This document shows positions 12,974-28,046 of a stretch of DNA of 64,000 nucleotides, in pieces. This DNA is from Psychroflexus salis. GTDB taxonomy: Bacteria > Bacteroidota > Bacteroidia > Flavobacteriales > Flavobacteriaceae. A program made the translations under genes and the position numbers. The stretch is taken from positions 62,001-126,000 of the forward strand of contig NZ_BMGL01000010.1 of the NCBI RefSeq assembly GCF_014640175.1, read 5' to 3'. The notes beneath the pieces are model-generated. The model was not told the origin of the DNA. It worked only from the letters and a program-made list of their open reading frames with translations, and did no database searches. Within the stretch, counting starts at the first letter, position 1. Every line of letters begins with the position of its first letter.

Positions 12974-13885
12974 TTGGAAACAATCTTATCAATACACCAA
13001 CTCACTAAATTTTATGGTAAAAACAAAGCCGTAGACCAGGTCAGTTTTAAAATTGAAAAAGGCCATGTTTACGGTATTTTAGGACCAAATGGAAGTGGTA
13101 AGTCTACCACTTTAGGCATGATTTTAAATGTAGTAAACCCTAGCAGTGGATCTTTTTCTTGGTTTAATGGAAATTTAAATACACACGATGCTTTAAAGAA
13201 AATTGGAGCTATTATCGAGCATCCCAATTTTTATCCAAACATGTCTGCAATTGAAAATTTAGAACTTGTAACTAAAATTAAGTGCTTAACTCATCCCAAC
13301 TATCAAGAAAAACTCGAACTTGTAGGTTTATGGGATAGAAAAAACGATGCTTTTAAAACCTATTCATTAGGTATGAAACAGCGTTTAGCCATTGCTTCAG
13401 CTCTTTTAAATAATCCCGAAATTTTAATTCTAGATGAACCCACCAACGGTTTAGATCCACAGGGAATTCATCAAATACGTGCAATTATTCAAAAAATAGC
13501 CGCGCAAGGAACTACAATTTTATTGGCTTCACATTTGTTAGATGAAGTTGAAAAAATATGTTCTCATGTAATCATTTTACGCAACGGTAAAATGATTTAC
13601 GATGGTAGTGTTGATGCGATGAATGCCAGCCATGGTTATTTTGAAGTTGCAGCTGAAAACAGTGAAAAGTTAGAAGCATTTGCAAATCAAAATGAAGCAT
13701 TCGAAACGGTAATAAAATTACCTAATAATCTGTATAAGTTAATATTAAACAAACCAATGGAAGCTGATACTTTAAATGAAATGGCTTTTAAAAATGACCT
13801 TGTATTAAGTCACTTGGTTAAACGAAAAGAAAGTTTAGAAGAAAGTTTTTTAAACCTAACCAAAAACGAAGCCCAACATGCGTAG
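12974..13885 (+). CDS. ABC transporter ATP-binding protein
   Basis: This 303-aa ATPase has Walker A (GPNGSGKST, about residue 38), the signature (YSLGMKQRLAIASALL), Walker B (ILILDEPTNGLDPQG) and the switch His (LLASHLLDEVEKI). The C-terminal extension of about 90 residues is typical of drug, bacitracin or antibiotic exporters of the CcmA/BcrA type. The only plausible start is a TTG at 12974 (METILSIHQLTKFYG). It overlaps the permease gene by 8 nt. The substrate is not readable; induction by an ECF sigma factor is suggested by the upstream motif. Confidence 0.92.
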   Translation: METILSIHQLTKFYGKNKAVDQVSFKIEKGHVYGILGPNGSGKSTTLGMILNVVNPSSGSFSWFNGNLNTHDALKKIGAIIEHPNFYPNMSAIENLELVTKIKCLTHPNYQEKLELVGLWDRKNDAFKTYSLGMKQRLAIASALLNNPEILILDEPTNGLDPQGIHQIRAIIQKIAAQGTTILLASHLLDEVEKICSHVIILRNGKMIYDGSVDAMNASHGYFEVAAENSEKLEAFANQNEAFETVIKLPNNLYKLILNKPMEADTLNEMAFKNDLVLSHLVKRKESLEESFLNLTKNEAQHA

Positions 13886-14702
13886 ATTACTCTCAATTGA
13901 ATTGTTTAAACTTAAACAGAGTCGTTCGGCTAAAATACTAAGTATTATTTATTTTGTGCTATTTACATTTACAGCCCTTTTTGCTACTATTAATTTCGAT
14001 TTTGGTAGTATCAATTTTAGAATAGCCGACCAAGGTATTTTCAATTTTCCGTATATCTGGCATTTTAACACCTATATTATTTCCATCATTAAAATACTCT
14101 TGGCTATCGTTATGATTTCGATGATTACTAACGAATATAGTAACCGAACTTTAAAACAAAATTTAATTGATGGCTTAAGTAAAAAGGAATTTATTCTCTC
14201 TAAATTTTATGCAATTGTCTTATTTTCCTTAGCTTCTACTCTGCTTGTTTTTGTTGTTTCTCTCGTTTTAGGACTTATTTTTTCAGACTATACCGAAATT
14301 GGAATTATTTTTTCTGAATTAGAATACATCTTGGCTTATTTTGTAAAATTGGTTAGTTTCTTTTCTTTATGCATGTTCTTAGCCATTTTGGTTCGCAAGT
14401 CGGCTTTTACTTTGGGTTTTGTTTTTCTAATTTATTTAGGTGAATCTATTTTGGGTGGTATTTTGCGTTTTCAAGCTGAAGACTTTTTATTTATAGCAGA
14501 TTATTTTCCTTTAAATTCTATGAGTAACTTAATTGTTGAACCATTTACTAGGTTAGGTATTGTAAAATCGGCAACAGCACAAATTAATCCAGATTTTGTG
14601 AAAGATTATACAATAAGTTTATTCAAACTCATTATTCCTGTAATTTGGACTTTCATTTTTGTTTGGGGAAGTTTAAACCTATTAAAGAAACGAGATTTAT
14701 AA
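13878..14702 (+). CDS. ABC transporter permease (ABC-2 type)
   Basis: This 274-aa protein has about six transmembrane helices (near residues 19-40, 58-85, 110-133, 145-170, 172-195 and 243-266) and a large loop before the fifth or sixth. This fits ABC-2 permeases with a TNEYSNRTLKQNLIDGLSK coupling segment. It follows the ATPase gene with an 8-nt overlap and completes a two-component exporter. The substrate is unknown. Confidence 0.88.
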   Translation: MRRLLSIELFKLKQSRSAKILSIIYFVLFTFTALFATINFDFGSINFRIADQGIFNFPYIWHFNTYIISIIKILLAIVMISMITNEYSNRTLKQNLIDGLSKKEFILSKFYAIVLFSLASTLLVFVVSLVLGLIFSDYTEIGIIFSELEYILAYFVKLVSFFSLCMFLAILVRKSAFTLGFVFLIYLGESILGGILRFQAEDFLFIADYFPLNSMSNLIVEPFTRLGIVKSATAQINPDFVKDYTISLFKLIIPVIWTFIFVWGSLNLLKKRDL

Positions 14703-14763: not shown

Positions 14764-14771
14764 TACATTTG
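14764..14771 (+). promoter_or_regulatory. -7 box TACATTTG 10 nt before the start of the first T9SS protein
   Basis: TACATTTG fits TAnnTTTG. The TTG start codon follows after a 10-nt gap, so the mRNA leader would be only about 4-7 nt. The two next paralogues have the same arrangement with 9-nt gaps. Confidence 0.45.
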
Positions 14772-14781
14772 TTAAAAAAAG

Positions 14782-17610
14782 TTGAAAAGCTTATTTCTTT
14801 TATTTCTTTTAATTTTTTCTGTCTCTTCTTTCTCTCAAGGCGAAGCAAATAATTGGTATTTTGGTCAATTTGCCGGGGTAACTTTTAATACAAATCCGCC
14901 AAGCTCCTTAAATAATGGACAATTAACTACATTAGAAGGCTGCTCATCGATTTCAGATTCAGCTGGAAATTTAGTTTTCTATACAGATGGTAGAACGGTC
15001 TGGGACAAAGAACATAACATTATGCCCAATGCAGATTATTTTAATGGCACCGGATTAATGGGCGACCCTTCAAGTACTTCTAGCGGATTAATTGTTCCGC
15101 ATCCAACAAATCCAAACTTATATTATATTTTTACGGTAGATGAGCCACATCACAACAATGCGAATGCTTATCCTAATCAAGGTCCAGCTGATATAAATGG
15201 AAACTCTATACCCTTTTACGATGAAGGTTTCCAATTTACTATACCACAAGAAGACGATGGTTATAATCATGGGTTTAATTACAGTTTGGTAGATATGAAT
15301 CTTAGAAACGGTCTTGGCGATGTTATTCCAGACCAAAGAAACTTACATTTAGTAACATATGACGTAAATGATCCAGAAGAAATTAAATACAAATGTGCCG
15401 AAAAAATTACTGCAGTTGTAAACGACAATTGCAATTCAATTTGGGTAATTACACACTTTATCAATCGGTTTTATGCTTTTAGCATCGATGAAAATGGTGT
15501 AGACCCAAATCCAGTAATTACAGAAATTGGACCAACTATTCCTTTAAGTTCGTATCGTCGTGGTGCTCTAGGTTACTTAAAAGCTTCTCCTAATGGTGAA
15601 AAATTAATAGTTGCTAATCTTCAGAATGCCAATTCGGGTCAGAATACTGGAAACATCTATTTATACGATTTTAATAATGCTACTGGAGAACTAGAAAATC
15701 CTCTGCTTTTAAAAGACAATACATTAGCTTATGGGGTTGAATTCTCTCCAAATTCTAAAGTTGCTTATGCGACTTCTACTGGAGATTTACTGCAATGGAA
15801 TATAGAAGCAGACGACATCCTTAGTACCGAATATGTAGTACAAAATACAACAAATCTTGGTATTGCCATTCAATTAGCGCCTAACGGAAAAATATATTTT
15901 CCGCAACAACAAACATCATTATTAAAGGTTATTAATTCTCCCAATAATTTAGGGGAAAGTATGGGACTTTCAGATAGTCTTGATGATGGTGCTATTGATT
16001 TAGGAGAAAATATAGCTAGCATTGGTTTACCACCTTTTATACAATCTATTTTTACCTCCAGAATTGGTCTTTTAGAAGAAGGTGATACAAATCAAATAAA
16101 AACCCAACTAAAGCTTTGTGAAGGCGAAACTTTTGAGTTATCCTATACGCATGAAACTTCTGCAACTTACCAATGGTACGAAAATGGAGAGCCTATTGAA
16201 AATGAAACATCTTCCACTTTAGTAATTCCTTTAAATTTAGATAGTACAGAAAACTTAAATTATACCTTAGATGTTTTTCCAGATGATGGAGAATGTGCAC
16301 TCTCAGGAATTGCCAATGTATTAATTGAACCATTACCCCAAATCCAAAATGCAAGCATTAATAAATGTGTAACAGATATAGACGATTTTTCATCAGAATT
16401 TAATCTCAACGATGCGCAAGAAAATGTATTAACTAACAACTTAAATTCAAATGATTTTATTTTCTCGTATTTTCTAACCGAAGAAGAAGCTTATGTCGAT
16501 GAAAATGCTATTCAAAATGAAACAGAATTTACTTCTTTTAATGATACAACAATATTTGTTCGTGTAGAAAATGAAGTGCCAAATTGCTTCTCTGTTTCTG
16601 AAATCACTCTTCGTGTAACCGATTACACAGAAGGAGAAACCTATGATTTATTGCGTTGTGACGATAATTTAACAGGAATACAAAACTTTGATTTATCTGA
16701 AATTGAAAATAATATGGGTGCTGAAATATCTGGCTATTACGAAAGTATAAATGATGCACTTAACCAAAATAACAGTATTCTAAACTTTCAAACGTATACG
16801 AATGAAGAAAGCTATGCAAATGAAGTTTATTATCGCATCGAAAACAATACCTGTAGTACGATTGGTAAAGTAAATTTAACAGTATTTAATTTACCCATGC
16901 TTTCGGAAAGTTTTAATTACACATATTGTTTAGATAGTTATCCTGAAACCATTGAAATTAAACCAAATATAAATGAAAATGAAGCTGATTTATACAGCTA
17001 CTTTTGGCCACATTCAAACCAAACCACTTACCAAGTAAATATAAATGAAGCTGGAAATTATAGTGTATTAGTAACAGACCTAGATACAGGCTGTGAAGCC
17101 ATTCAACAAATTGAAGTAACTGGGGTTAATCTGGCTAGATTTAGCTTAGTAACACAAGATGCAACCCGTTATGATAATTTTATTGAAGTTGTTATTCACG
17201 ATGATAGTTTAAGTGAGTATGAGTTTGCACTTAATGATCCTTTTGGACCTTTTCAAGATTCACCGCGTTTTGAAAACCTTGAACCTGGTTTTTACACAGT
17301 TTATGTAAAAGAAATAAATGGGTGTGGTATTATTAAAAGAAATGTTGCGCTACTAGGAATAATGCCTTACTTCTCACCTAATAACGACGGAATAAATGAT
17401 TACTGGAAAGTTATTGGCCTAGATAATAATATTAGAGCTAAAATTAGAATATTTGATAGGTATGGGAAATTACTTCATGAGTTTGATGAAGCCAACACAG
17501 GTTGGGATGGCACCTATAATGGTAATTTAATGTTGAATAACGACTATTGGTATGCTATTCACTTAGATGATGGTCGAGTTTTGCGTGGAAACTTTACCTT
17601 GAAACGCTAA
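14782..17610 (+). CDS. T9SS type B sorting domain protein, tandem paralogue 1
   Basis: This 942-aa secreted protein begins at a TTG that gives a textbook signal peptide (MKSLFLLFLLIFSVSSFSQG). An N-terminal domain of about 400 residues carries conserved blocks (NNWYFGQFAGVTFNTNPP, GNLVFYTDGRTVWDKEHN, SSGLIVPHP, ITHFINRFYAF, GVEFSPNSK) and may fold as a beta-propeller. An Ig-like segment follows (YQWYENGEPIENETSS), then repeated beta-sandwich modules. The last 80 residues are the type B sorting domain (FSPNNDGINDYWKV ... WDGTYNGN ... NDYWYAI ... GNFTLKR). It is thus exported by T9SS to the cell surface or medium, probably as an adhesin or structural protein; the true role is unknown. Confidence 0.9.
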   Translation: MKSLFLLFLLIFSVSSFSQGEANNWYFGQFAGVTFNTNPPSSLNNGQLTTLEGCSSISDSAGNLVFYTDGRTVWDKEHNIMPNADYFNGTGLMGDPSSTSSGLIVPHPTNPNLYYIFTVDEPHHNNANAYPNQGPADINGNSIPFYDEGFQFTIPQEDDGYNHGFNYSLVDMNLRNGLGDVIPDQRNLHLVTYDVNDPEEIKYKCAEKITAVVNDNCNSIWVITHFINRFYAFSIDENGVDPNPVITEIGPTIPLSSYRRGALGYLKASPNGEKLIVANLQNANSGQNTGNIYLYDFNNATGELENPLLLKDNTLAYGVEFSPNSKVAYATSTGDLLQWNIEADDILSTEYVVQNTTNLGIAIQLAPNGKIYFPQQQTSLLKVINSPNNLGESMGLSDSLDDGAIDLGENIASIGLPPFIQSIFTSRIGLLEEGDTNQIKTQLKLCEGETFELSYTHETSATYQWYENGEPIENETSSTLVIPLNLDSTENLNYTLDVFPDDGECALSGIANVLIEPLPQIQNASINKCVTDIDDFSSEFNLNDAQENVLTNNLNSNDFIFSYFLTEEEAYVDENAIQNETEFTSFNDTTIFVRVENEVPNCFSVSEITLRVTDYTEGETYDLLRCDDNLTGIQNFDLSEIENNMGAEISGYYESINDALNQNNSILNFQTYTNEESYANEVYYRIENNTCSTIGKVNLTVFNLPMLSESFNYTYCLDSYPETIEIKPNINENEADLYSYFWPHSNQTTYQVNINEAGNYSVLVTDLDTGCEAIQQIEVTGVNLARFSLVTQDATRYDNFIEVVIHDDSLSEYEFALNDPFGPFQDSPRFENLEPGFYTVYVKEINGCGIIKRNVALLGIMPYFSPNNDGINDYWKVIGLDNNIRAKIRIFDRYGKLLHEFDEANTGWDGTYNGNLMLNNDYWYAIHLDDGRVLRGNFTLKR

Positions 17611-17743
17611 ATACTTTAACCAAAAGCCTAATTTTTAAAGTAAGTGTTGTGTAAACTAAAAATTAACCGGTAAAAATCTATGCATATAACCTATAAGCAT
17701 TTGTTAAATTCAAAAATCTACCTACTTATTCATCTACTTAGAT

Positions 17744-17751
17744 TATTTTTG
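17744..17751 (+). promoter_or_regulatory. -7 box TATTTTTG 9 nt before a GTG start
   Basis: TATTTTTG fits TAnnTTTG and lies inside the open frame that extends upstream from 17761, which supports a start downstream of it. The GTG at 17761 follows after exactly 9 nt. Confidence 0.45.
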
Positions 17752-17760
17752 TTGAAAAAG

Positions 17761-20598
17761 GTGAATAAATATATAAGTCTTTTATTGCTTATTATTCCAT
17801 TTTCTTTGCTTGCCCAAGGTGAAGCCAATAATTGGTATTTTGGAAATAAAGCAGGTGTAAGCTTTAATACAAATCCACCACTAGCTTTAACAAATGCTGA
17901 GATAAACACTATTGAAGGTAGCTCATCTATATCAGATACTTCAGGAAATCTATTGTTTTATACAGATGGTAGAACCGTTTGGGATAAAGAACACAATATT
18001 ATGCCTAATGCAGATTATTTTGGTGGAACAGGCTTATTAGGCGATCCTTCTAGTACAATGAGTGCTTTAATTATTCCCCACCCAGGACAACCTAATTTAT
18101 ATTTCATTTTTACCGTAGATGAACCACATAAAGAAAATGCAAATGCTTACCCTAATCAAGGCCCTGGAGATAATAATGGGTTTCCACTTCCATTTTATGA
18201 TCAAAGAGAGAATTTAACAGTTCCTCAAGCTGATGACGGTTTTAATAACGGGTTAAATTATAGTTTGGTAGATATGTCCTTAAGAAATGGCTTGGGAGAT
18301 GTTGTTGCAGATAATAAAAACATTCACTTAAGAACTTACCAAGAAGAAAATTCAGAACATTTAAAGTATAAATGCTCAGAGAAAGTTACAGCCGTAGCTG
18401 GAGCAGATTGTAACACCATTTGGGTTATTACTCATTTTGTTGAACGGTTTTATGCTTTTTTTATAGATGAAAATGGTATTAATGAAGAGCCTGTTGAATC
18501 TAAACATCCACCAGCTATCGGACTTGAATATTATGGGGAAGCAGCATCGGGCATTTTAAAAGCTTCTCCAAATGGTCAAAAATTAGCTATGGCAACCACA
18601 CAAACAATACCACCACTAGCTATATCTGGGTTTGTAAACCTTTACGATTTTGATAATTTAACAGGAGAAGTAAATAATCCTGTTGAAATATTAAATAATA
18701 TGCGGCCTTATGGAATCGAATTTTCTCCAAATTCTCAAAAAGTTTTTGCAACTATTGGTAACGATATTGCTCAATGGGATTTAAGTAGTGGAAACCCTGC
18801 TGGATCTGTGTTTTTATTAAATACTGGAGAAAATCAATCTTCTTTACAATTTGGACCTGATGGAAAAATATACTCTGCAAGTGGTACTAAACTAAACGTA
18901 ATTAATAATCCAAACGCTTATGGCGAAAACATGAATTATTCATCTTCATTTTTAGAAGGAGCAATTGATTTAGAAGGAAATAATGCTAATGTGGGCTTGC
19001 CAAACTTTTTACAGTCCATATTAAATTCTAGAGTAGATATTGTTGATGGAGATGGGATTGGCAATTCAACTGTTCAAAGCACTATTAGTATTTGCGATGG
19101 TGAAACCTATACCTTAGGTTACGAATATCCTGAAGCTGCTAGCTATCAATGGTACGAAAATGGAGAACCTATACTGGGTGAAACAAGTCCGTTTTTAACT
19201 ATAAGTTTACCTGCTAACGAACAAGCTCCGTTTACTACAGCTTATACTTTAGATATTTTTCCTGAATCTGGAGATTGTAAACTTAGTGGTTTGGCAAATA
19301 CCATTTTTGGTGAAGCCCCAGCAATCGAAAATGCTAGCTTGAGTCAATGCGCTTCGGGCTCTTCTTTTTTTAATTTTAATAATGCTAAAGAAGATTTAAT
19401 TGCACCATCAGCATTAGGAGTAGATGACTTTGAATATGCGTATTTCGAAACATCTGAAGACTTACTTAATTATAATTCTATTCAAAACATCACGAATTAT
19501 GAAAACCTAACTAATCCACAAAATATTATCGTAGAAATTACCAGTAAAGAAACTCGGTGTTCGAGTATTGCAGATTTACAATTAAATGTAATTAATAACG
19601 AAATTGAAGAAACTTTAGAAGTTGAATTAACCGAATGTGATACAAACTTAGATGGTTTTCAGGAATTTAACTTAGAATTAGTAGCCGAACAAACAAATTT
19701 AAATCCTACTAACTTTTATTTGAAAATAAAAGATGCGCTCGAAGATCGAAACAGAATAACCAACACTACTGAATTTAGTAATACAGAAGCTTATGCTCAA
19801 ACTATATATTTTAGAGTTTTAGTAAATGGAAGTTGTAATGTTCTAGGAGTTTTAACATTAAGGGTGCAAGATTTACCTTTCACTTTCGAAGATAAAAAAG
19901 TATTCTACTGCATAGAAGATAGCCCAGACCCAATAACAATTTTTCCCAGTGTGCCCGAAAACGAAATTGATAATTATGAATATTTTTGGACTGCAACTAA
20001 CCAAGAAGGTTATGCTATAGAAGTTAATGAAGCAGCAATTTATCAAGTTCAGGTCACGGCAATTGCTTCGGGTTGTGTATCTACTCAAAACATTAGTGTT
20101 GTAAACACAAGTACAGCTAATTTTCAGGTTCAAATTAAGGATGGAAAAGAAAAGGACAATAGCATTGAAGTAATTCTAGACGAAACTTTCAACACTAATA
20201 ATTTTGAATATTCATTAAACAGTCCGACTGATGTTTATCAAGATTTTCCAGTTTTTCGTAATTTAACACCTGGAAATTATGAAGTATATGTAAGAAACAA
20301 ATTAGGATGTGGAATTTCAAAACGAACTGTTCATGTTGTTGGGGCAATGTTGTTTTTCACTCCAAATAACGATGGAATTAATGATGTTTGGAATTTAGTG
20401 GGCTTGCCTAACAATCAAAATGCTGAGATATATATTTTTGATCGATATGGAAAATTACTCATAAAATTTAATGCTAAAAACTTTCCAGGTTGGGATGGTA
20501 CTTATCATGGAAATTTGATGCCAAATAATGATTATTGGTTCAGAGCAAACTTAGATAATGGCAGAATTATAAAAGGAAACTTTACGCTAAAGCGTTAA
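17761..20598 (+). CDS. T9SS type B sorting domain protein, tandem paralogue 2
   Basis: I start this 945-aa protein at the GTG at 17761 because it gives a clean signal peptide (MNKYISLLLLIIPFSLLAQG); the frame is open back to an ATG at 17680, but that segment contains a -7 promoter box. The domain order matches paralogue 1: propeller-like N-terminal domain (NNWYFGNKAGVSFNTNPP, SISDTSGNLLFYTDGRTV), Ig-like module (YQWYENGEPILGETSP), further modules and a C-terminal type B sorting domain (FFTPNNDGINDVWNLVGLPN ... GNFTLKR). It lies 150 nt after paralogue 1 and clearly arose by tandem duplication. Confidence 0.9.
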   Translation: MNKYISLLLLIIPFSLLAQGEANNWYFGNKAGVSFNTNPPLALTNAEINTIEGSSSISDTSGNLLFYTDGRTVWDKEHNIMPNADYFGGTGLLGDPSSTMSALIIPHPGQPNLYFIFTVDEPHKENANAYPNQGPGDNNGFPLPFYDQRENLTVPQADDGFNNGLNYSLVDMSLRNGLGDVVADNKNIHLRTYQEENSEHLKYKCSEKVTAVAGADCNTIWVITHFVERFYAFFIDENGINEEPVESKHPPAIGLEYYGEAASGILKASPNGQKLAMATTQTIPPLAISGFVNLYDFDNLTGEVNNPVEILNNMRPYGIEFSPNSQKVFATIGNDIAQWDLSSGNPAGSVFLLNTGENQSSLQFGPDGKIYSASGTKLNVINNPNAYGENMNYSSSFLEGAIDLEGNNANVGLPNFLQSILNSRVDIVDGDGIGNSTVQSTISICDGETYTLGYEYPEAASYQWYENGEPILGETSPFLTISLPANEQAPFTTAYTLDIFPESGDCKLSGLANTIFGEAPAIENASLSQCASGSSFFNFNNAKEDLIAPSALGVDDFEYAYFETSEDLLNYNSIQNITNYENLTNPQNIIVEITSKETRCSSIADLQLNVINNEIEETLEVELTECDTNLDGFQEFNLELVAEQTNLNPTNFYLKIKDALEDRNRITNTTEFSNTEAYAQTIYFRVLVNGSCNVLGVLTLRVQDLPFTFEDKKVFYCIEDSPDPITIFPSVPENEIDNYEYFWTATNQEGYAIEVNEAAIYQVQVTAIASGCVSTQNISVVNTSTANFQVQIKDGKEKDNSIEVILDETFNTNNFEYSLNSPTDVYQDFPVFRNLTPGNYEVYVRNKLGCGISKRTVHVVGAMLFFTPNNDGINDVWNLVGLPNNQNAEIYIFDRYGKLLIKFNAKNFPGWDGTYHGNLMPNNDYWFRANLDNGRIIKGNFTLKR

Positions 20599-20684
20599 AA
20601 GCAAATTTAGAAGCAGTAAAGCTTAGAGATAGTATTATTATTTGTTAAAATGTCTCGTAAACTTAACTGTATTGTTAATTATAT

Positions 20685-20692
20685 TATTTTTG
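20685..20692 (+). promoter_or_regulatory. -7 box TATTTTTG 9 nt before a TTG start
   Basis: TATTTTTG fits TAnnTTTG and is followed after exactly 9 nt by the TTG start at 20702, the same geometry as for the preceding paralogue at 17744/17761. Confidence 0.45.
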
Positions 20693-20701
20693 AATTAAAA
20701 A

Positions 20702-23581
20702 TTGAAACTTCTCTATTTTATTGTTGTTTGTCTTTTTTTATCTACACAGATTAATGCACAAGGCGAAGCTAATAATTGGTATTTCGGCAGTAATGCTGGT
20801 ATAACATTTAATACCAATCCACCTTCGGCCGTTTTTGATGGTCAGCTAAATACATTAGAAGGCTGTTCATCTATTTCAGATACAGGCGGAAACCTACTCT
20901 TTTATACAGATGGGCGTACAATTTGGGACAAAAACCATGATATTATGCCCAATGCAGATTATTTTGGAGGTACTGGTTTACATGGCGACCCATCAAGCAC
21001 TTCAAGTGGTTTAATTGTGCCACATCCAACAAACACTGATATTTATTTTGTTTTTACGGTAGATGAACCACATCAAGATAATGCAAATGCTTATCCCAAT
21101 CAAGGTCCAGCCGACCAAATCGGAAATCCGATTCCTAATTATGAAGAAGGTGAACAATATACCGTTCCTGAAGAAGACGATGGTTTTAACAACGGATTAA
21201 ATTATAGCATTGTAGATATTAGCCTTAGAAATGGTCTTGGCGATGTTGTACAGGGAGAACGAAACAATCCGCTAATTACCTACGATGAAAATAATTTCAG
21301 CAATCAATCCTATAAATGTGCAGAAAAAATTACTGCTGTAATTGGTGCGGACTGCGAAACCATTTGGTTAATAACACATTTCATTAATAACTTTTATGCT
21401 TTTTTAATTGATGAAGATGGAGTTAATGAAAATCCAGTAATTTCTCAATTAGCCCCTACTATCGGTCTTGCTGGTTACCGAAGAAATGCCTTAGGTTATT
21501 TGAAAGCATCTCCCGATGCCGAAAGATTACTCATGGCGAACACACAAACAGCCAATACAGGCAATGCAAATGGAAATGTTTATTTGTACGATTTCGATAA
21601 TGCTACAGGAATAGTTTCTAACCCATTGCAGTTAATTAACAACATTAGACCTTATGGAGTTGAATTTTCACCTGATTCAAAAAAGGCTTATGCAACTTCA
21701 TCTATCGGTCAAGAAAATGCTTTAATTTATCAATGGGATTTAAATGCAGACGATATTTCTAGTTCTATTTACACCCAACTTACTGCCATGCTTCAAGCAA
21801 CTGCTATACAATTAGGGCCAAACGGTAAAATTTATACACCACAAATTTCAACTGCAAGATTAAACGTTATTAATAATCCAAACGAACTTGGTGAAAACAT
21901 GAATTATTCCAGTTCAACTTTAAACGGTGCAATTGCTTTACAAGGTTTTCCAGCATATTTTGGACTACCACCATTTATTCAATCAATTTTTACATCAAGA
22001 GTTGATATTATTACTGATGTATCCGAATCTAATGATCAGAATTTCATCATTGAAACTGAATTAAATTTGTGCGGAAGCGAAACCTACACTTTAGGATTTG
22101 ATTACGAAGAACCTGCAACTTACCAGTGGTTTGAAAATGGACAAGCTCTAGATGGTGAGACAAGCCCAAATTTAGAAATAAGTTTGTCAGCTACTCTAAT
22201 AGCACCTTACGAAACAGCTTACACTTTAGAAATTTTTCCAGAAAATGGAGAATGTAAATTAAGTGGTATTGCTAATGTTGTTTTTGGCGAAGTTCCTTCG
22301 CTCGATGATGCTACACTAGTACAATGTGTTAACGATTTCGATAACCAAACTGCAGTTTTTAATCTGAATAATGCAAGAGCAGATTTTATTACAAATACCG
22401 ATTTAGCAGTAAATGATTTTGAATATCAGTTTTTTGAAACTGAAGATGATTTTGAAAATGAAACTCCAATTGAAGCAATTTCAAATTATGAAAACACTTC
22501 AAACCCCCAAACTATTATTGCTAAAATAATTAATACCTTTACACGTTGTTCTACTACAGTTAACCTAACTCTAATAGTCGATGATGTAGAAGGCACCGAA
22601 GAAATAGACTTATTTGTTTGCGACGATAATTTAAATGGCATACAAGAATTTAATTTAGAATTAGCTGCTAATGAAACTAGCTTCACACCTACTTCATTTT
22701 ATAGAAGTATAAATGATGCCTTGCAAGATGTAGATAGAATAAATAATACAACCAATTTTATTAATACAGAGCCTTATTTGCAAACCATTTATTTTAGAAC
22801 TTCCGAAGGTGATGGCTGTGGCATTCTTGGTATTCTAGATTTAAGGGTTAATAATTTACCATTTGAATTTGATGACCAGCAAGTTTTTTATTGTGTAGAA
22901 GATAGCCCTAATCCAATTCAGATTGCTCCTAGCGTGCCTGAAAACATAATCAACAATTATGAATATTTTTGGCCAGCCACAAATCAAGAAACTTTTGCAA
23001 TTAATGTGAATGAAACGGGTACTTATCAAGTTTTAGTAACTGAAATTGCAACAGGTTGTTCTTCTCTTCAAAATATAATCGTATCCAATTCTGGTTTACC
23101 ATCTTTCAATGTTTTGGTAGATGATGGCGACGAAGAAGCCAATAGCCTTTTTATTGAAATAAATGAAAATGATAGTCTTGGAGATTACGAATTTGCAATA
23201 GAAGATCCTAGCGGTCCTTACTCCGATAATAGACTTTATGAAGATTTACCTCCCGGTTTTTACGATGTGTTTATTCGCGATAAAAATGGTTGTGGTATTG
23301 CTAAACGAACCGTCGGTTTAATCGGATTAAGACAATTTTTTACGCCCAATAACGATGGAATAAACGACACTTGGAATGTGGCAGGTTTATCAGCAAACCG
23401 TAATGCTATAGTACGTATTTTCGATCGCTTTGGTAAATTACTTATCCAATTTACTGCACAAAATCGCCCTGGTTGGGACGGCACTTACAATGGTAAACTC
23501 ATGCCGAATAATGATTATTGGTATGCGGTAGAGGTAGACGATGGCAGAGTTTTAACAGGTAATTTTACGTTAAAACGCTAA
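20702..23581 (+). CDS. T9SS type B sorting domain protein, tandem paralogue 3
   Basis: This 959-aa protein starts at a TTG that gives MKLLYFIVVCLFLSTQINAQ, a typical signal peptide. It shares all landmarks with paralogues 1 and 2: NNWYFGSNAGITFNTNPP, LEGCSSISDTGGNLLFYTDG, SSGLIVPHPTN, KCAEKITAVIGADCETIW, FIQSIFTSRVDI, the YQWFENGQALDGETSP Ig-like module and the terminal sorting domain (FFTPNNDGINDTWNVAGLSA ... GNFTLKR). Cysteine pairs recur at the same places in all three (for example LFVCDDNLNGIQEFNLELA). Type B domains act without the type A hydrolysis and anchoring route, so the protein may be released or held by a partner. Confidence 0.9.
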   Translation: MKLLYFIVVCLFLSTQINAQGEANNWYFGSNAGITFNTNPPSAVFDGQLNTLEGCSSISDTGGNLLFYTDGRTIWDKNHDIMPNADYFGGTGLHGDPSSTSSGLIVPHPTNTDIYFVFTVDEPHQDNANAYPNQGPADQIGNPIPNYEEGEQYTVPEEDDGFNNGLNYSIVDISLRNGLGDVVQGERNNPLITYDENNFSNQSYKCAEKITAVIGADCETIWLITHFINNFYAFLIDEDGVNENPVISQLAPTIGLAGYRRNALGYLKASPDAERLLMANTQTANTGNANGNVYLYDFDNATGIVSNPLQLINNIRPYGVEFSPDSKKAYATSSIGQENALIYQWDLNADDISSSIYTQLTAMLQATAIQLGPNGKIYTPQISTARLNVINNPNELGENMNYSSSTLNGAIALQGFPAYFGLPPFIQSIFTSRVDIITDVSESNDQNFIIETELNLCGSETYTLGFDYEEPATYQWFENGQALDGETSPNLEISLSATLIAPYETAYTLEIFPENGECKLSGIANVVFGEVPSLDDATLVQCVNDFDNQTAVFNLNNARADFITNTDLAVNDFEYQFFETEDDFENETPIEAISNYENTSNPQTIIAKIINTFTRCSTTVNLTLIVDDVEGTEEIDLFVCDDNLNGIQEFNLELAANETSFTPTSFYRSINDALQDVDRINNTTNFINTEPYLQTIYFRTSEGDGCGILGILDLRVNNLPFEFDDQQVFYCVEDSPNPIQIAPSVPENIINNYEYFWPATNQETFAINVNETGTYQVLVTEIATGCSSLQNIIVSNSGLPSFNVLVDDGDEEANSLFIEINENDSLGDYEFAIEDPSGPYSDNRLYEDLPPGFYDVFIRDKNGCGIAKRTVGLIGLRQFFTPNNDGINDTWNVAGLSANRNAIVRIFDRFGKLLIQFTAQNRPGWDGTYNGKLMPNNDYWYAVEVDDGRVLTGNFTLKR

Positions 23582-23637
23582 TTTTTATCTTCCTTAAACC
23601 ATTTGTTAATACTGCAGTCATTACTAGTATTAGATTG

Positions 23638-23645
23638 TATTTTTG
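23638..23645 (+). promoter_or_regulatory. -7 box TATTTTTG upstream of the fourth T9SS gene
   Basis: TATTTTTG fits TAnnTTTG and lies 22 nt before the TTG start at 23668. A second match (TAGCTTTG, 23663-23670) overlaps the start codon itself and cannot drive this gene from that start. Confidence 0.35.
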
Positions 23646-23667
23646 CCCCTAAAATATTCGTGTAGCT

Positions 23668-26040
23668 TTGAAGCATTTTTTATTTCTATTTTTAGCCTTA
23701 TTCACTTTGTGTAATCATGCTCAATTTATTGAAGCTGATCATACGGCTTTTTCAGACCAATTGCTAATTGAAGAAGTATTATTCGATAACTCCAATTGTG
23801 TTGAAGACATTCAAATCATCAATACTGTTTCTGCTAATTTTCAAGATGGAATGAAAAGCTATGGCTATTTTTCAACTCCTTCTAACTCTACTTTTCCTTT
23901 TGAACAAGGTATTGTTTTAAGCACTGGAAGATTAGACAATACCGAAGGTCCTAATTCTTCTTTAAGCGATGATGATGCAGATAATTGGGGCGAAGATTTA
24001 GATTTAAGAAACGCCTTGAATATTCCTGACAACGAAGTGCTGACTAACGCAACTAGCATTACTTTTACATTTACCCCTAAAGCTAGTCAATTGAGTTTCG
24101 ACTACATTTTTGCTTCAGAAGAGTATCAAGAAAATAATGCTAATACGTGTATTTTTTCAGATGTTTTTGCTTTTTTAATTCGCCCGATGGAAAATGGACA
24201 AGCAATTTCTCCCTATCAAAATATTGCAGTTGTGCCCAATACTAATATTCCTGTAAAAGTAACCACAGTTCGACCTGAAATCCCAAACGGATGCCCAGCT
24301 GAAAATGAAGAGTGGTTTGGACAGTTTAATCAATCTGGTGGTGCGGCAGCTGTTTCTCCAACAAATTTTAATGGACAAACTCAGGTTCTTACAGCTATAG
24401 CTGAAGTTATTCCTAACCAAACCTACGAAGTAAAATTAGTTATTGCAGATGAAGCTAATTACCGATATGATTCGGCTGTTTTTTTAGAAGGCGGAAGCTT
24501 CGAAGTTGGGGTAAATTTAGGTTTAGACCGAACAAACGATAGAGCTATTTGCGAAGGAGATGAAGCTTTATTAGACGTAAGTGAAGATAATCCAACGGCA
24601 GTAAATTGGTTTTTTAATGGAAATTTAATTCAACAAAATCAAGATACTTTAAGTGTTTCTGAAGCAAATTTTGGAGCTGGCACTTATGCTGTTGAAGCTA
24701 CCTTAGCCAATGGCTGCATCGCTACTGATGAAATTGAAGTGGAGTTTCAAAGTAATGCACAACCCGATCCGTTTAGTATTGTTACTTGTGGTGAAGCAAA
24801 CGACTTAGATGTAACTTACAACTTAACCGATATAGAAAATGAAGTCGATGCGCTTCCTAATAATTTTAATATTAAGGATTTTTATTTAACTGAAGCAGAT
24901 GCTATCATTGAAACAAATGCGATTGATAACCCTACTTCTTTTTCACCAAATACTCAAAACTTCGATGTATTTGTTCGTTTAGAAAATATTGGCGGCTGTG
25001 AGCTTATTGTTCCCATTATTCTTCAAAATAACGCATTTGAATTTGATGGTCTTCGCTTCACAGAATGTCCAGACCCTTCTGTAAATGAACTTTCATTCAA
25101 TACAGGTCAAATTCGAAATTCTATTCTTAATTTAATCGGAGAACAAGTAGATCAAGTTGCTATTTTTCCTTCTAGATTTGATGCTCTACAAAATGCTAAT
25201 GAAGTTTTAGCCGATAATTTTTCAATTGATATAGCAAACTTTCCTCAAACTTATTACGCGCGTTTGCAAAATCCTGGCGAATGTCAAGGCTTAGTTCCTA
25301 TAGAATTAAATGTAATTGATAGACCAGAATTCGAAAACACAACTACAAATCTAATTTTATGTAGGCAAGACGAAACATTGACTTTAAACCCAAGATTGAT
25401 TAATGGAAATGAAAATGTGCAATTTGAATGGAATACAGGTGAAACTTCACAAAATATAACGCTTTCAAATGCTGGAACTTATACCTTAACAGCTACAAAA
25501 ACTTCAATAAATGAAGGTGAATCCATTACTTGTAGTAATCAAATTTCATTTACTGTAGAATTGGTAGGTATAGAAAGTATTCAAGTGCAAATCATAGGTA
25601 ATCCAAACCAAACACAAACCGCAATAATTGAAGCTTTTCCTGATGGCGATTATTTGTATTCCTTAAATTCTACAAGTCAATTTCAAGAAAATAATGTATT
25701 CGATATCAATCAAGTAGACAATGTTGTTTATATCCAAGATACAAGTGGATGCGGAATTGTAGCTCGTTCATTTACGGTAATTGATTTGCCCGAGTTTTTT
25801 ACACCAAATAACGACGGAATTAATGATGCATGGCAACCACGTGGAATTCAAAATGAAAATGCAAATCTAAAATCAGTTCAAATATTCGATCGTTTTGGAA
25901 AATTGATGATTAATTTTGGACCTGGTGGAAAATGGGATGGCACTTATAATGGTAAACCCGTTCCGCCCAACGATTATTGGTATAAAGTAAATTTTAGAGA
26001 TGGCCGAGTTTTTACAGGAAACATAACCTTAAAGCGTTAA
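23668..26040 (+). CDS. Choice-of-anchor L domain protein with T9SS type B sorting domain
   Basis: This 790-aa exported protein starts at a TTG giving MKHFLFLFLALFTLCNHAQ. The N-terminal domain (about 50-275) carries the choice-of-anchor L pattern: PFEQGIVLSTGRLDNTEGPN, LSFDYIFASEEYQENNANT, FAFLIRP and YEVKLVIADEANYRYDSAVF. Beta-sandwich modules follow, one with FEWNTGETSQNITLSNAGTY. The final 80 residues are the type B sorting domain (FFTPNNDGINDAWQPRGIQN ... GNITLKR). It differs in its N-terminal half from the three preceding paralogues but shares their tail. UvrB begins 2 nt after its stop. Confidence 0.9.
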   Translation: MKHFLFLFLALFTLCNHAQFIEADHTAFSDQLLIEEVLFDNSNCVEDIQIINTVSANFQDGMKSYGYFSTPSNSTFPFEQGIVLSTGRLDNTEGPNSSLSDDDADNWGEDLDLRNALNIPDNEVLTNATSITFTFTPKASQLSFDYIFASEEYQENNANTCIFSDVFAFLIRPMENGQAISPYQNIAVVPNTNIPVKVTTVRPEIPNGCPAENEEWFGQFNQSGGAAAVSPTNFNGQTQVLTAIAEVIPNQTYEVKLVIADEANYRYDSAVFLEGGSFEVGVNLGLDRTNDRAICEGDEALLDVSEDNPTAVNWFFNGNLIQQNQDTLSVSEANFGAGTYAVEATLANGCIATDEIEVEFQSNAQPDPFSIVTCGEANDLDVTYNLTDIENEVDALPNNFNIKDFYLTEADAIIETNAIDNPTSFSPNTQNFDVFVRLENIGGCELIVPIILQNNAFEFDGLRFTECPDPSVNELSFNTGQIRNSILNLIGEQVDQVAIFPSRFDALQNANEVLADNFSIDIANFPQTYYARLQNPGECQGLVPIELNVIDRPEFENTTTNLILCRQDETLTLNPRLINGNENVQFEWNTGETSQNITLSNAGTYTLTATKTSINEGESITCSNQISFTVELVGIESIQVQIIGNPNQTQTAIIEAFPDGDYLYSLNSTSQFQENNVFDINQVDNVVYIQDTSGCGIVARSFTVIDLPEFFTPNNDGINDAWQPRGIQNENANLKSVQIFDRFGKLMINFGPGGKWDGTYNGKPVPPNDYWYKVNFRDGRVFTGNITLKR

Positions 26041-26042
26041 AC

Positions 26043-28046
26043 ATGAAGTTTGAATTGAAATCTGAATTTAAACCTACTGGCGACCAACCTTCAGCCATCA
26101 AAAAACTAACCGATGGTTTACTTGCTAATGAGACTTACCAAACTTTACTCGGAGTTACAGGTTCGGGTAAAACCTTTACGGTGGCAAATGTGGTACAAGA
26201 AGTGCAAAAACCAACTTTAGTTTTGGCGCATAACAAAACCTTAGCCGCACAATTATATGCAGAATTCAAGGCTTTTTTTCCTGAAAACGCAGTAGAATAT
26301 TTTGTTTCCTACTACGATTATTATCAACCTGAAGCTTATATTCCATCTAGTGGAACCTATATAGAAAAAGATCTTTCTATAAATGAAGAAATAGAAAAAT
26401 TGAGATTAAGCACCACTTCTTCCCTACTCTCTGGCCGTAGAGATGTATTGGTAGTTGCTTCGGTTAGTTGTTTATATGGAATTGGAAATCCAGCTGAATT
26501 TCAAAAAAACGTAATTAATATTGAAGTTGATCAAGAAATTTCAAGAACGCACTTGTTACGAAGATTAGTACAAAGTTTATATTCCCGTACTGAAGCTCAA
26601 TTTAACCACGGAAACTTCAGAATTAAAGGTGATACCTTAGATGTTTTTCCAGGCTATGCTGACCATGCGTACCGCATTCACTTTTTTGGTGATGAAATTG
26701 AAGAAATTGAAGCTTTCGATCCGCAAACTAATGAGATTAGGGCGAAATACGATAAATTAAATATTTATCCAGCCAATATATTTGTAACTTCTCCTGATGT
26801 CTTAAACCAAGCCATCGACCAAATTGCCATAGATTTAGGAAAACAAATAGAGTATTTCAAAGAAATTGGGAAACCACTTGAAGCTAAACGAATTGAAGAA
26901 CGCACAAATTTCGATTTAGAAATGATAAAAGAATTGGGCTATTGCAGCGGAATTGAAAATTATTCGCGCTATTTAGATGGTAGAAAACCAGGTACTCGCC
27001 CATTCTGCTTACTAGATTATTTTCCAGACGATTATTTAATGATTGTAGACGAAAGTCACGTTACGATTTCGCAAGTTGGTGCCATGTTCGGCGGCGATCG
27101 CTCTCGAAAAGAAAATTTGGTAGAATATGGTTTTCGTTTACCAGCTGCAATGGATAACCGACCTTTAAAACTAGAAGAATTTGAAGCACTCCAAAATCAG
27201 GTGATTTATGTAAGTGCAACTCCAGCCGATTATGAGCTTCGAAAAACTGAAGGAGTTTATGTGGAGCAAGTTATTCGTCCTACAGGTTTACTCGATCCTG
27301 TTATTGAAGTAAAACCTAGTCAAAATCAAATAGACGATTTAATTGAAGAGATCGATATTCGTGTAAAAAAAGACCAACGTATTTTAGTAACGACCTTGAC
27401 CAAGCGAATGGCAGAAGAATTAACAAAATACTTATCTCGTATAGACATCAGAACGCGCTATATACATAGTGATATCGACACTTTAGAACGTGTAGAAATC
27501 ATGACTGATTTACGTAAAGGTTTGTTTGATGTTTTAGTTGGTGTTAATTTGTTGCGGGAAGGATTAGATTTACCCGAAGTTTCGTTGGTGGCGATTTTAG
27601 ATGCTGATAAAGAAGGCTTTTTAAGAAGTAACCGAACCTTAACCCAAACCATAGGCCGTGCAGCAAGAAATATTGAAGGAAAAGCAATTTTGTATGCTGA
27701 TAAAATTACGGACAGTATGCAAAAAACCATCGATGAAACGAAATATCGCCGAAACAAACAAATAAGTTATAACAAAGCGAATAACATTACGCCTACAGCC
27801 TTAAATAAATCTATTACAACTACTTTCAATAAAAAACCTGAACCTTATAAAATTGAAACTACACCTAATTTAGCCGCTGCTGAAGAAGCTGCCGAAGATT
27901 ATAACATCAAAGATTTCGATTCACAGATTAGAAAAGTGCGTAAAGCTATGGAAAAAGCAGCGAAAGATTTAGACTTTATGGAAGCAGCTAAATACCGCGA
28001 CCAACTAAAAATGTTAGAAGAAAAGAAGGCGGAATTAGACATTTAA
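26043..28046 (+). CDS. uvrB: Excinuclease ABC subunit B
   Basis: This 667-aa nucleotide excision repair helicase has every landmark of UvrB: Walker A (GVTGSGKTFT, about 39-48), the beta-hairpin region (YDYYQPEAYIP), DESH Walker B (IVDESHVTISQVG), motif V/VI (GVNLLREGLDLPEVSLVAIL, TQTIGRAARN) and a C-terminal UVR domain that contacts UvrC (KAMEKAAKDLDFMEAAKYRD). UvrB receives damaged DNA from UvrA and positions UvrC for incision. The length is normal. It begins 2 nt after the last T9SS gene with no room for its own promoter, so it may depend on upstream transcription or an internal promoter. Confidence 0.97.
   Translation: MKFELKSEFKPTGDQPSAIKKLTDGLLANETYQTLLGVTGSGKTFTVANVVQEVQKPTLVLAHNKTLAAQLYAEFKAFFPENAVEYFVSYYDYYQPEAYIPSSGTYIEKDLSINEEIEKLRLSTTSSLLSGRRDVLVVASVSCLYGIGNPAEFQKNVINIEVDQEISRTHLLRRLVQSLYSRTEAQFNHGNFRIKGDTLDVFPGYADHAYRIHFFGDEIEEIEAFDPQTNEIRAKYDKLNIYPANIFVTSPDVLNQAIDQIAIDLGKQIEYFKEIGKPLEAKRIEERTNFDLEMIKELGYCSGIENYSRYLDGRKPGTRPFCLLDYFPDDYLMIVDESHVTISQVGAMFGGDRSRKENLVEYGFRLPAAMDNRPLKLEEFEALQNQVIYVSATPADYELRKTEGVYVEQVIRPTGLLDPVIEVKPSQNQIDDLIEEIDIRVKKDQRILVTTLTKRMAEELTKYLSRIDIRTRYIHSDIDTLERVEIMTDLRKGLFDVLVGVNLLREGLDLPEVSLVAILDADKEGFLRSNRTLTQTIGRAARNIEGKAILYADKITDSMQKTIDETKYRRNKQISYNKANNITPTALNKSITTTFNKKPEPYKIETTPNLAAAEEAAEDYNIKDFDSQIRKVRKAMEKAAKDLDFMEAAKYRDQLKMLEEKKAELDI

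Follow-up and report, generated by a model that had tools for sequence, protein, structure and literature searches.

A row of four exported proteins in Psychroflexus salis (Flavobacteriaceae) raises the question of how type B substrates of the type IX secretion system (T9SS) leave the cell when no PorP/SprF-like carrier is encoded beside them, and what such proteins do once outside. The window analysed here is a stretch of 64,000 nucleotides, bases 62001-126000 of contig C10 (NZ_BMGL01000010.1) in a genome of 2.87 Mb. At 14782-26040 it contains four open reading frames (ORFs) head to tail on the + strand, encoding 942, 972, 959 and 790 amino acids (aa), which we call genes A to D. These are further orphan type B substrates, a known class, and on balance we consider it probable that they are exported through one carrier encoded on another contig (L017, contig C4), tethered by it to the gliding track, and used as adhesins. 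The features of the four genes, including their C-terminal sorting domains (CTDs) and the immunoglobulin-like (Ig-like) stalk of A, are as follows.

14782..17610, + strand: gene A, 942 aa, propeller-headed type B T9SS substrate (ORF, TIGR04131)
14836..16062, + strand: predicted beta-propeller head domain of A, 409 aa (predicted structure, PDB matches)
16063..17355, + strand: predicted stalk of A, Ig-like beta-sandwich domains (predicted structure, PDB matches to Ig-repeat proteins)
17356..17607, + strand: type B CTD of A, terminus FTLKR (TIGR04131, 113 bits)
17680..20598, + strand: gene B, 972 aa, paralogue of A with its head from 17815 (ORF, TIGR04131, identity, head tree)
20344..20595, + strand: type B CTD of B, terminus FTLKR (TIGR04131, 112 bits)
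20702..23581, + strand: gene C, 959 aa, paralogue of A with its head at 20759-22000 (ORF, TIGR04131, identity, head tree)
23324..23578, + strand: type B CTD of C, terminus FTLKR (TIGR04131, 117 bits)
23668..26040, + strand: gene D, 790 aa, homologue of Fjoh_4934 whose head differs from those of A-C (ORF, TIGR04131)
23821..24501, + strand: choice-of-anchor L domain of D (NF038133, 147 bits)
25780..26037, + strand: type B CTD of D, terminus ITLKR (TIGR04131, 104 bits)

All four proteins end in a TIGR04131 match at the extreme C-terminus (98-112 bits, E 3e-28 to 1e-32, in one search, and the bits listed above in another), and because these scores far exceed the curated cut-off of 35 bits the matches are not due to chance. 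Indeed, a preliminary description of this DNA had proposed four tandem type B T9SS substrates here, and both the ORFs and their sorting domains agree with it. The same description took A, B and C for paralogues that share their first 400 residues; the paralogy stands, but the sharing is not confined to that part, as the three are mutually 50-57% identical from end to end. Gene D is 30-32% identical to A-C overall, with the highest identity in the CTD, and its N-terminus is a choice-of-anchor L domain (NF038133 choice_anch_L, 147 bits). By eye, a hydrophobic start precedes the residues Q-G-E-A-N in A and C, and D begins alike; the listed start of B lies upstream, perhaps further than the true one. 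This genome encodes one more type B protein, at L008:1-1752 (contig C3), whose CTD ends in ISLIR and is 37-48% identical to those of the window; no PorP-like gene was found beside it within the stretch examined.

To place the array among its relatives we used the best 80 of 97 related loci found in other genomes, 81 with the window, each spanning up to 10 kb on either side and many ending sooner, at contig ends. A tblastn search with 44 queries from the carrier set (E up to 1e-8) found a PorP/SprF-like gene near the array in 0 of the 81 loci. The window thus has no such neighbour, as had been noticed earlier, and because the neighbour is also missing from the 80 related loci its absence is not peculiar to this genome. 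A stand-alone system of type B genes with a local partner was rejected on the same count.

In the genome as a whole there are four PorP/SprF genes, the preliminary description having suggested a search for them. Three each lie directly after a type B gene of their own, with a CTD from a different class, and ahead of a gene that is PorE-like by eye, with tetratricopeptide repeats and WD40-like repeats. The fourth, L017, lies 111 base pairs (bp) past a type B gene whose terminus is of the FTLKR class seen in the window, is adjoined by murI and ompH, and has no PorE-like gene beside it in the 2.97 kb examined. The window CTDs are 48-56% identical to the CTD beside L017 and 21-28% identical to four operon-type CTDs of the same genome. 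Among 30 carrier loci, whose flanks reach up to 1.5 kb and in many cases end at a contig end, a CTD gene lies ahead of the carrier in 15. At L001, L002 and L003 (ends of contigs C6, C8 and C4) the assembly breaks within a type B gene and the CTD DNA is near-identical; one such copy, on C4, directly precedes L017. In two relatives assembled as single contigs (G078, G118) the carrier-adjacent CTD likewise recurs at other places, where it scores as well or almost as well, in frames of 1822-2469 codons.

The role of L017 can be approached through Flavobacterium johnsoniae. According to the text of PMC12618676, Fjoh_1123, Fjoh_1720 and Fjoh_4934 are type B proteins of that organism without a neighbouring carrier, and they have a common carrier, Fjoh_1677, as judged from co-immunoprecipitation and from the secretion of sfGFP fused to each of their CTDs. 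The same text reports that close CTDs and carriers cross-talk, with none seen at 26% or 43% identity, and refers to type B secretion as not needing PorV. In G261, the genome that we take as F. johnsoniae from the features that follow, we found exactly 12 TIGR04131 genes. The Fjoh tags were placed on it by position, through a linear fit (r 0.99998) over eight points, with Fjoh_4750 itself placed by position. For SprB the fit uses the locus tag that we take to be the right one. The three best TIGR04131 matches fall at the places of the orphans, about 8 kb or less from the fit. CTD identities calculated from this genome reproduce the published 68% and 43%, the pair Fjoh_3952-SprB gives 23% against a published 26%, and the orphan CTDs are mutually 44-57% identical, for which the text of PMC12618676 gives over 44%.

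By this placement the gene at 1.946 Mb, the place of Fjoh_1677, matches L017 at 49% identity, and the next F. johnsoniae match, a gene taken as SprF, reaches 26%. In a tree of carriers, which comes with a long-branch warning, L017, Fjoh_1677 and 29 carriers of the family form one group (97/98) apart from the three other carriers of this genome. (L143, a protein of 676 aa that is not a PorP, is included in this tree and in the tblastn query set and is outside the tail count given below.) From sequence comparison, then, L017 is the ortholog of Fjoh_1677. The CTDs of the window are 39-48% identical to those of the three F. johnsoniae orphans, 36-39% to that of SprB, and 19-32% to the remaining eight. 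Moreover, Fjoh_4934 directly follows the same pair of genes for an ATP-binding cassette (ABC) ATPase and permease (63% and 55% identical to the window's), and it too is a choice-of-anchor L protein, with 34% identity to D. Because of this position and this head match, the window holds an expanded form of the F. johnsoniae locus whose CTD has been tested (PMC12618676). Fjoh_4934, Fjoh_1720 and Fjoh_1123 with Fjoh_1677 thus resemble A-D with L017 in orphan CTD class and carrier family, and Fjoh_4934 resembles D in its head and in its place after the ABC genes; the F. johnsoniae slot, however, has one type B gene, while in the window three propeller genes stand between the ABC genes and D, and uvrB follows. 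Neither a relative of the A-C head nor uvrB was found in 19 kb around each of the three F. johnsoniae orphan genes. With a carrier of the orphan-serving type (PMC12618676) present elsewhere in this genome as L017, the absence of a neighbouring carrier is not surprising, and A-D are very probably exported by L017.

Co-occurrence across the family is consistent with this pairing. Our sample held 149 genomes, one per genus, and with G000 omitted gave a table of 148, in which kinship is not corrected for. A match to L017 of some kind is found in 147 of the 149. With carrier orthologs defined as matches to L017 at E up to 1e-50 and strong TIGR04131 genes as those at E up to 1e-32, the ortholog occurs in 126 of 148 genomes, and strong TIGR04131 genes in 116 of these 126 as compared to 5 of the 22 without it, four of the five being incomplete bins. 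Among the 124 genomes at least 90% complete the corresponding counts are 102 of 111 and 1 of 13 (Fisher 2e-10), and other CTD cut-offs (1e-29, 1e-31 and 1e-33) give 9e-8, 3e-9 and 1e-9; the cut-offs were chosen after the data had been seen, and TIGR04131 strength serves as a proxy for CTD class.

What the proteins might do outside is suggested by the tail of the carrier. The text of PMC12635249 describes how a C-x-C in the periplasmic tail of SprF bonds to Cys343 of GldK, a part of the moving gliding track, and how SprB is still exported by SprF without its tail cysteines and then hardly moves. L017 has such a pair in its own tail, CNC at 332-334 of 339 residues, and a tail of the form C-x-C-P-x-[VI]-N is present in all of the 31 best-scoring carriers (31 of 31), L017 and Fjoh_1677 among them; SprF too has C-x-C in its tail. 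We also examined 40 lower-scoring carriers (E 1e-53 to 1e-98), a selection from the lower end of the list of L017 matches. Over the 71 orthologs examined the C-x-C tail is usual and not universal (53 of 71), and the idea that it is invariant in all orthologs was rejected. Several carriers among L166-L205 that have neither tail cysteine end in VKGIL or in an LRPR-like sequence, and perhaps belong to genera that lost gliding.

Within single genomes the pair sets carriers apart. It is missing from the three other carriers of this genome and from 7 of the 10 F. johnsoniae carriers, and 9 of these 10 end in PR[FY]F. The three F. johnsoniae carriers with C-x(1-2)-C in the tail are SprF, Fjoh_1677 and one directly after Fjoh_4750 (C-x-x-C), and Fjoh_3951, the carrier of Fjoh_3952, has a tail without cysteines. 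In the text of PMC12618676 SprB and Fjoh_4750 move and Fjoh_3952 is static, so that the presence of a tail cysteine pair agrees with mobility for 4 of 4 tracked F. johnsoniae substrates, a small sample, counting movement in 3% of cells as moving for the fourth, a fusion to the CTD of Fjoh_1123 that is the sole tracking test of the orphan class. The text of PMC9143113 proposes that mobile type B proteins use the carrier alone and static ones a carrier together with PorE. The genome of P. salis encodes GldK (586 bits) and GldJ (862 bits), and the only cysteines of its GldK are Cys19, in the lipobox, and Cys334 (own numbering), a possible counterpart of Cys343 in F. johnsoniae. The best match of SprF in this genome is L017 itself, at 26%.

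Two kinds of known complex frame the comparison. The pair SprB/SprF (PMC12635249) is like A-D/L017 in having a type B substrate, a carrier of the PorP/SprF family and a C-terminal C-x-C, with GldK and GldJ present; it differs in that SprF is 26% identical to L017, whose F. johnsoniae ortholog serves several unlinked substrates, and in that the SprB frame is about 6500 aa long as compared to 790-972 aa for A-D. The static complexes PG1035/PorP/PorE and Fjoh_3952/3951/3950, as the texts of PMC9143113 and PMC12618676 present them, share with A-D a type B CTD held by a barrel of the PorP family, the Porphyromonas gingivalis PG1035 complex being likened here by description. Fjoh_3952 is unlike A-D: its carrier is encoded in the same operon and has no cysteines in its tail, and there is a PorE-like partner.

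We therefore propose the following sequence of events. A-D would pass through the inner membrane via Sec and through the outer one via the T9SS, where their orphan-class CTDs would be collected in trans by the single carrier L017; the cysteine tail of L017 would bond to GldK of the moving track; and the head, a propeller in A-C or choice-of-anchor L in D, would be held out on an Ig-like stalk to make contact. A-D would then be track-tethered adhesins, large and adhesin-like, moving at the surface. Gene content, CTD class, predicted head fold, the recurrent genomic slot described below, carrier orthology, the cysteine tail, and the presence of GldK and GldJ are observed here; that L017 carries A-D, that its tail bonds to GldK, and that A-D move and are adhesins is inferred. 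Attachment of L017 to the track through its tail is likely in this genome, and that A-D act as adhesins in gliding or surface transport is our best guess.

Several observations weigh against the proposal. The window CTDs are little closer to the orphans (39-48%) than to SprB (36-39%), and the CTD tree groups SprB with the orphan class, with support that is not strong (89/91). In the text of PMC12618676 one CTD pair does not cross-talk at as much as 43% identity. Among nearly complete genomes, G091 has a strong CTD without a carrier ortholog and nine have the carrier without a strong CTD. Of the 40 lower-scoring carriers 22 have C-x-C, 10 have a single cysteine before proline, and 8 lack such a cysteine within their final 30 residues; the link between C-x-C and mobility comes from four tracked substrates. 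SprB-HaloTag carrying the CTD of Fjoh_1123 was mostly static, with helical movement in 3% of cells (PMC12618676, main text). Finally, a propeller head can equally be an enzyme.

Two of these points bear on what we regard as a rather unlikely alternative, and the one that survives best, namely that A-D are exported by L017 and are static, as adhesins or matrix components that the carrier retains in the outer membrane, with the tail serving otherwise, for example in an internal bond. The mostly static Fjoh_1123 proxy (PMC12618676, main text) and the absence of the twin cysteines from 18 of the 40 lower-scoring orthologs are in its favour; however, C-x-C is kept in 31 of 31 of the best-scoring carriers, whereas the three other carriers of this genome and six of the seven cysteine-less F. 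johnsoniae carriers end in PR[FY]F, and a PorE-like gene was not found beside L017 in 2.97 kb.

The heads of A-C raise a second alternative. The preliminary description could assign this domain to no named family and suggested that it may be a beta-propeller, and we arrive at the same two points. No Pfam or NCBIfam model matches the A-C head at E up to 1, lactonase models included, so that membership of a named sequence family, whether of enzymes or of adhesins, was rejected; a phmmer search of PDB sequences with A yielded weak Ig-domain matches at residues 440-524 only. The closest named match to the head domain is in Psychroflexus planctonicus, at 81% identity. Distant relatives (23-34%) are encoded on plasmids of Hymenobacter, Adhaeribacter and Pontibacter (NZ_CP060788, NZ_CP094672, NZ_CP095068, NZ_CP055155 and NZ_CP134697). 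For modelling we aligned 61 sequences chosen from the window and the 80 loci, leaving out L033, where the head gene is in two frames; alignment A3 takes 36 of 41 eligible stretches, with L047, L049, L051, L059 and L077 omitted. The model of the A head from the 61 sequences has a mean predicted local distance difference test score (pLDDT) of 92.4 and a predicted template modelling score (pTM) of 0.92, and the A-C head is confidently predicted to be a beta-propeller. In a Foldseek search of the PDB, lactonase-like propellers of Bacteroides came first, with a TM-score by query of about 0.5. VIA-align 2 gave an archaeal surface layer (S-layer) YVTN propeller at Z 22.8 (root-mean-square deviation 3.2 over 277 residues), tied with lactonase-like chains at Z 22.7-22.1. 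These YVTN and lactonase-type propellers (PDB 1l0q, the archaeal S-layer protein, and 4qrj, 3fgb and 3scy) are like the A head in fold, with Z about 22 over 277-302 residues, and differ from it in sequence, at 11-13% identity only.

Head function is not deducible from the propeller fold, and in principle A-C could have been amplified for a substrate and not for adhesion, the head being a lactonase-like enzyme or a small-molecule binder. The nearest folds do include 6-phosphogluconolactonase-like proteins and B12-binding surface lipoproteins of Bacteroides. The same lists, however, also contain the tied S-layer propeller, WD40 scaffolds and a lectin, the fold matches are 9-16% identical without a match to any sequence family, and a shared propeller fold shows no function; we consider this possibility improbable. 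In overall build A-D look like surface adhesins. The model of the A stalk and CTD is a row of Ig-like sandwiches with the CTD last (pLDDT 88.9, pTM 0.56), and its top PDB match by Foldseek is part of GhpA, the grappling hook protein of Aureispira (PDB 9fly, 9flv and others), with six GhpA chains in the top 15 and animal Ig proteins interspersed. The low TM-score of the top match by query length (0.30) and its high root-mean-square deviation (17.6) are as expected for flexible Ig repeats.

That A-D use several carriers or PorV and have no single partner is very improbable, for although cross-talk of close CTDs and carriers is documented, the window CTDs share 19-32% identity with the eight other F. 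johnsoniae CTDs and 21-28% with the four operon-type CTDs of their own genome, and the text of PMC12618676, which documents that cross-talk, reports none at 26% and 43% and cites type B secretion as PorV-independent.

The array itself occupies a recurrent slot, in which an ABC ATPase and permease are followed by one or more type B genes and then by uvrB. Its borders in the window are these.

12974-13885, + strand: ABC transporter ATPase, left border (ORF list, named by eye)
13878-14702, + strand: ABC transporter permease, left border (ORF list, named by eye)
26043..28046, + strand: uvrB, recurrent right border (ORF, named by eye)

A relative of the permease is present in 60 of the 80 related loci, with an array gene at most 400 bp after it in 56; uvrB is present in 38, of which 37 also have the permease. 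Between permease and uvrB these 37 loci have one array gene in 21 cases, two in 11, three in 3 and, in 2, none above the thresholds. In the window the spacers between A, B, C and D are 69, 103 and 86 bp, and uvrB begins 2 bp past D. The GC content of A-D (0.33-0.35) is the same as that of the neighbourhood. With separate promoters in mind we note that the motif TAnnTTTG occurs at 14764, 20685 and 23638, upstream of genes A, C and D by 10, 9 and 22 bp respectively. The + strand of the window has on average 0.19 such motifs per 200 bp. None of the three is accompanied by a TTG further upstream at the distance tested.

Gene order in P. planctonicus is the same, A-B-C-D-uvrB. The head tree joins A, B and C each to a single P. 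planctonicus gene (97/87 to 100/100) and places all six in one group (100/99), separate from the other Psychroflexus that it includes. Because of this pairing the three genes appear to stem from one triplication in a common ancestor with P. planctonicus. Most of the 80 loci (74) have a single head copy, 4 have two, the P. planctonicus locus has three and L093 has five; copies may be undercounted because many loci are cut. The preliminary description had envisaged a surface system built by duplication; the head tree supports the duplication, but with a single propeller gene in 74 of 80 loci the array does not amount to a self-contained system. Another amplification is seen in the Flavobacteriaceae bacterium RhTr2 (L093:1410-19661), which has five tandem propeller-headed genes, the last incomplete. 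In Psychroflexus montanilacus (L033:10001-13300) the head gene is in frames of 397 and 463 aa, a broken gene or a sequencing error. Taishania pollutisoli (G168, L087) has 49 TIGR04131 matches in 3.8 Mb, the best at 70 bits, as compared to 3-19 in the 20 other genomes of the same search.

As far as we have searched, these data add three things to PMC12618676 and PMC12635249: the slot, a propeller family without a name, and the twin cysteines in the tail of the orphan carrier. A partial literature search, with figures and supplements outside its scope, did not find the link between orphan carrier and twin cysteines in print: the text of PMC12618676 does not contain 'disulfide' and has 'cysteine' in its reference list alone, and the text of PMC12635249 does not contain Fjoh_1677. 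The literature searched likewise contained nothing combining T9SS type B sorting, beta-propeller and Flavobacteri, and named Fjoh_1677, Fjoh_4934 and Fjoh_4750 in PMC12618676 only. The proposal would thus join two papers of 2025, one on an orphan carrier (PMC12618676) and one on the role of twin cysteines in a carrier tail (PMC12635249).

A broader reading can be offered tentatively, as an idea that falls somewhat short of our preferred account in probability. Fjoh_1677/L017 might be a general carrier of track adhesins that hooks unlinked and interchangeable surface proteins to GldK through C-x-C-P, with the ABC-uvrB slot as one cargo array. It might be the sole track carrier where the best match of SprF is L017, with short adhesins in the place of SprB and with the tail telling mobile from static. 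If so, gliding or surface transport in this organism would depend on short propeller and choice-of-anchor L adhesins and not on SprB, genera without the twin cysteines would keep the same proteins static, and the tail would become a predictor of mobility in any genome. The carrier ortholog is present in most of the sampled genera of Flavobacteriaceae (126 of 148), and orphan type B proteins, which the recurrent slot offers a handle to locate, are common and mostly annotated by their sorting domain alone. If they could be tied to one carrier, and that carrier by its tail to the track, many such proteins, unexplained so far, would become a class whose mode of action can be tested.

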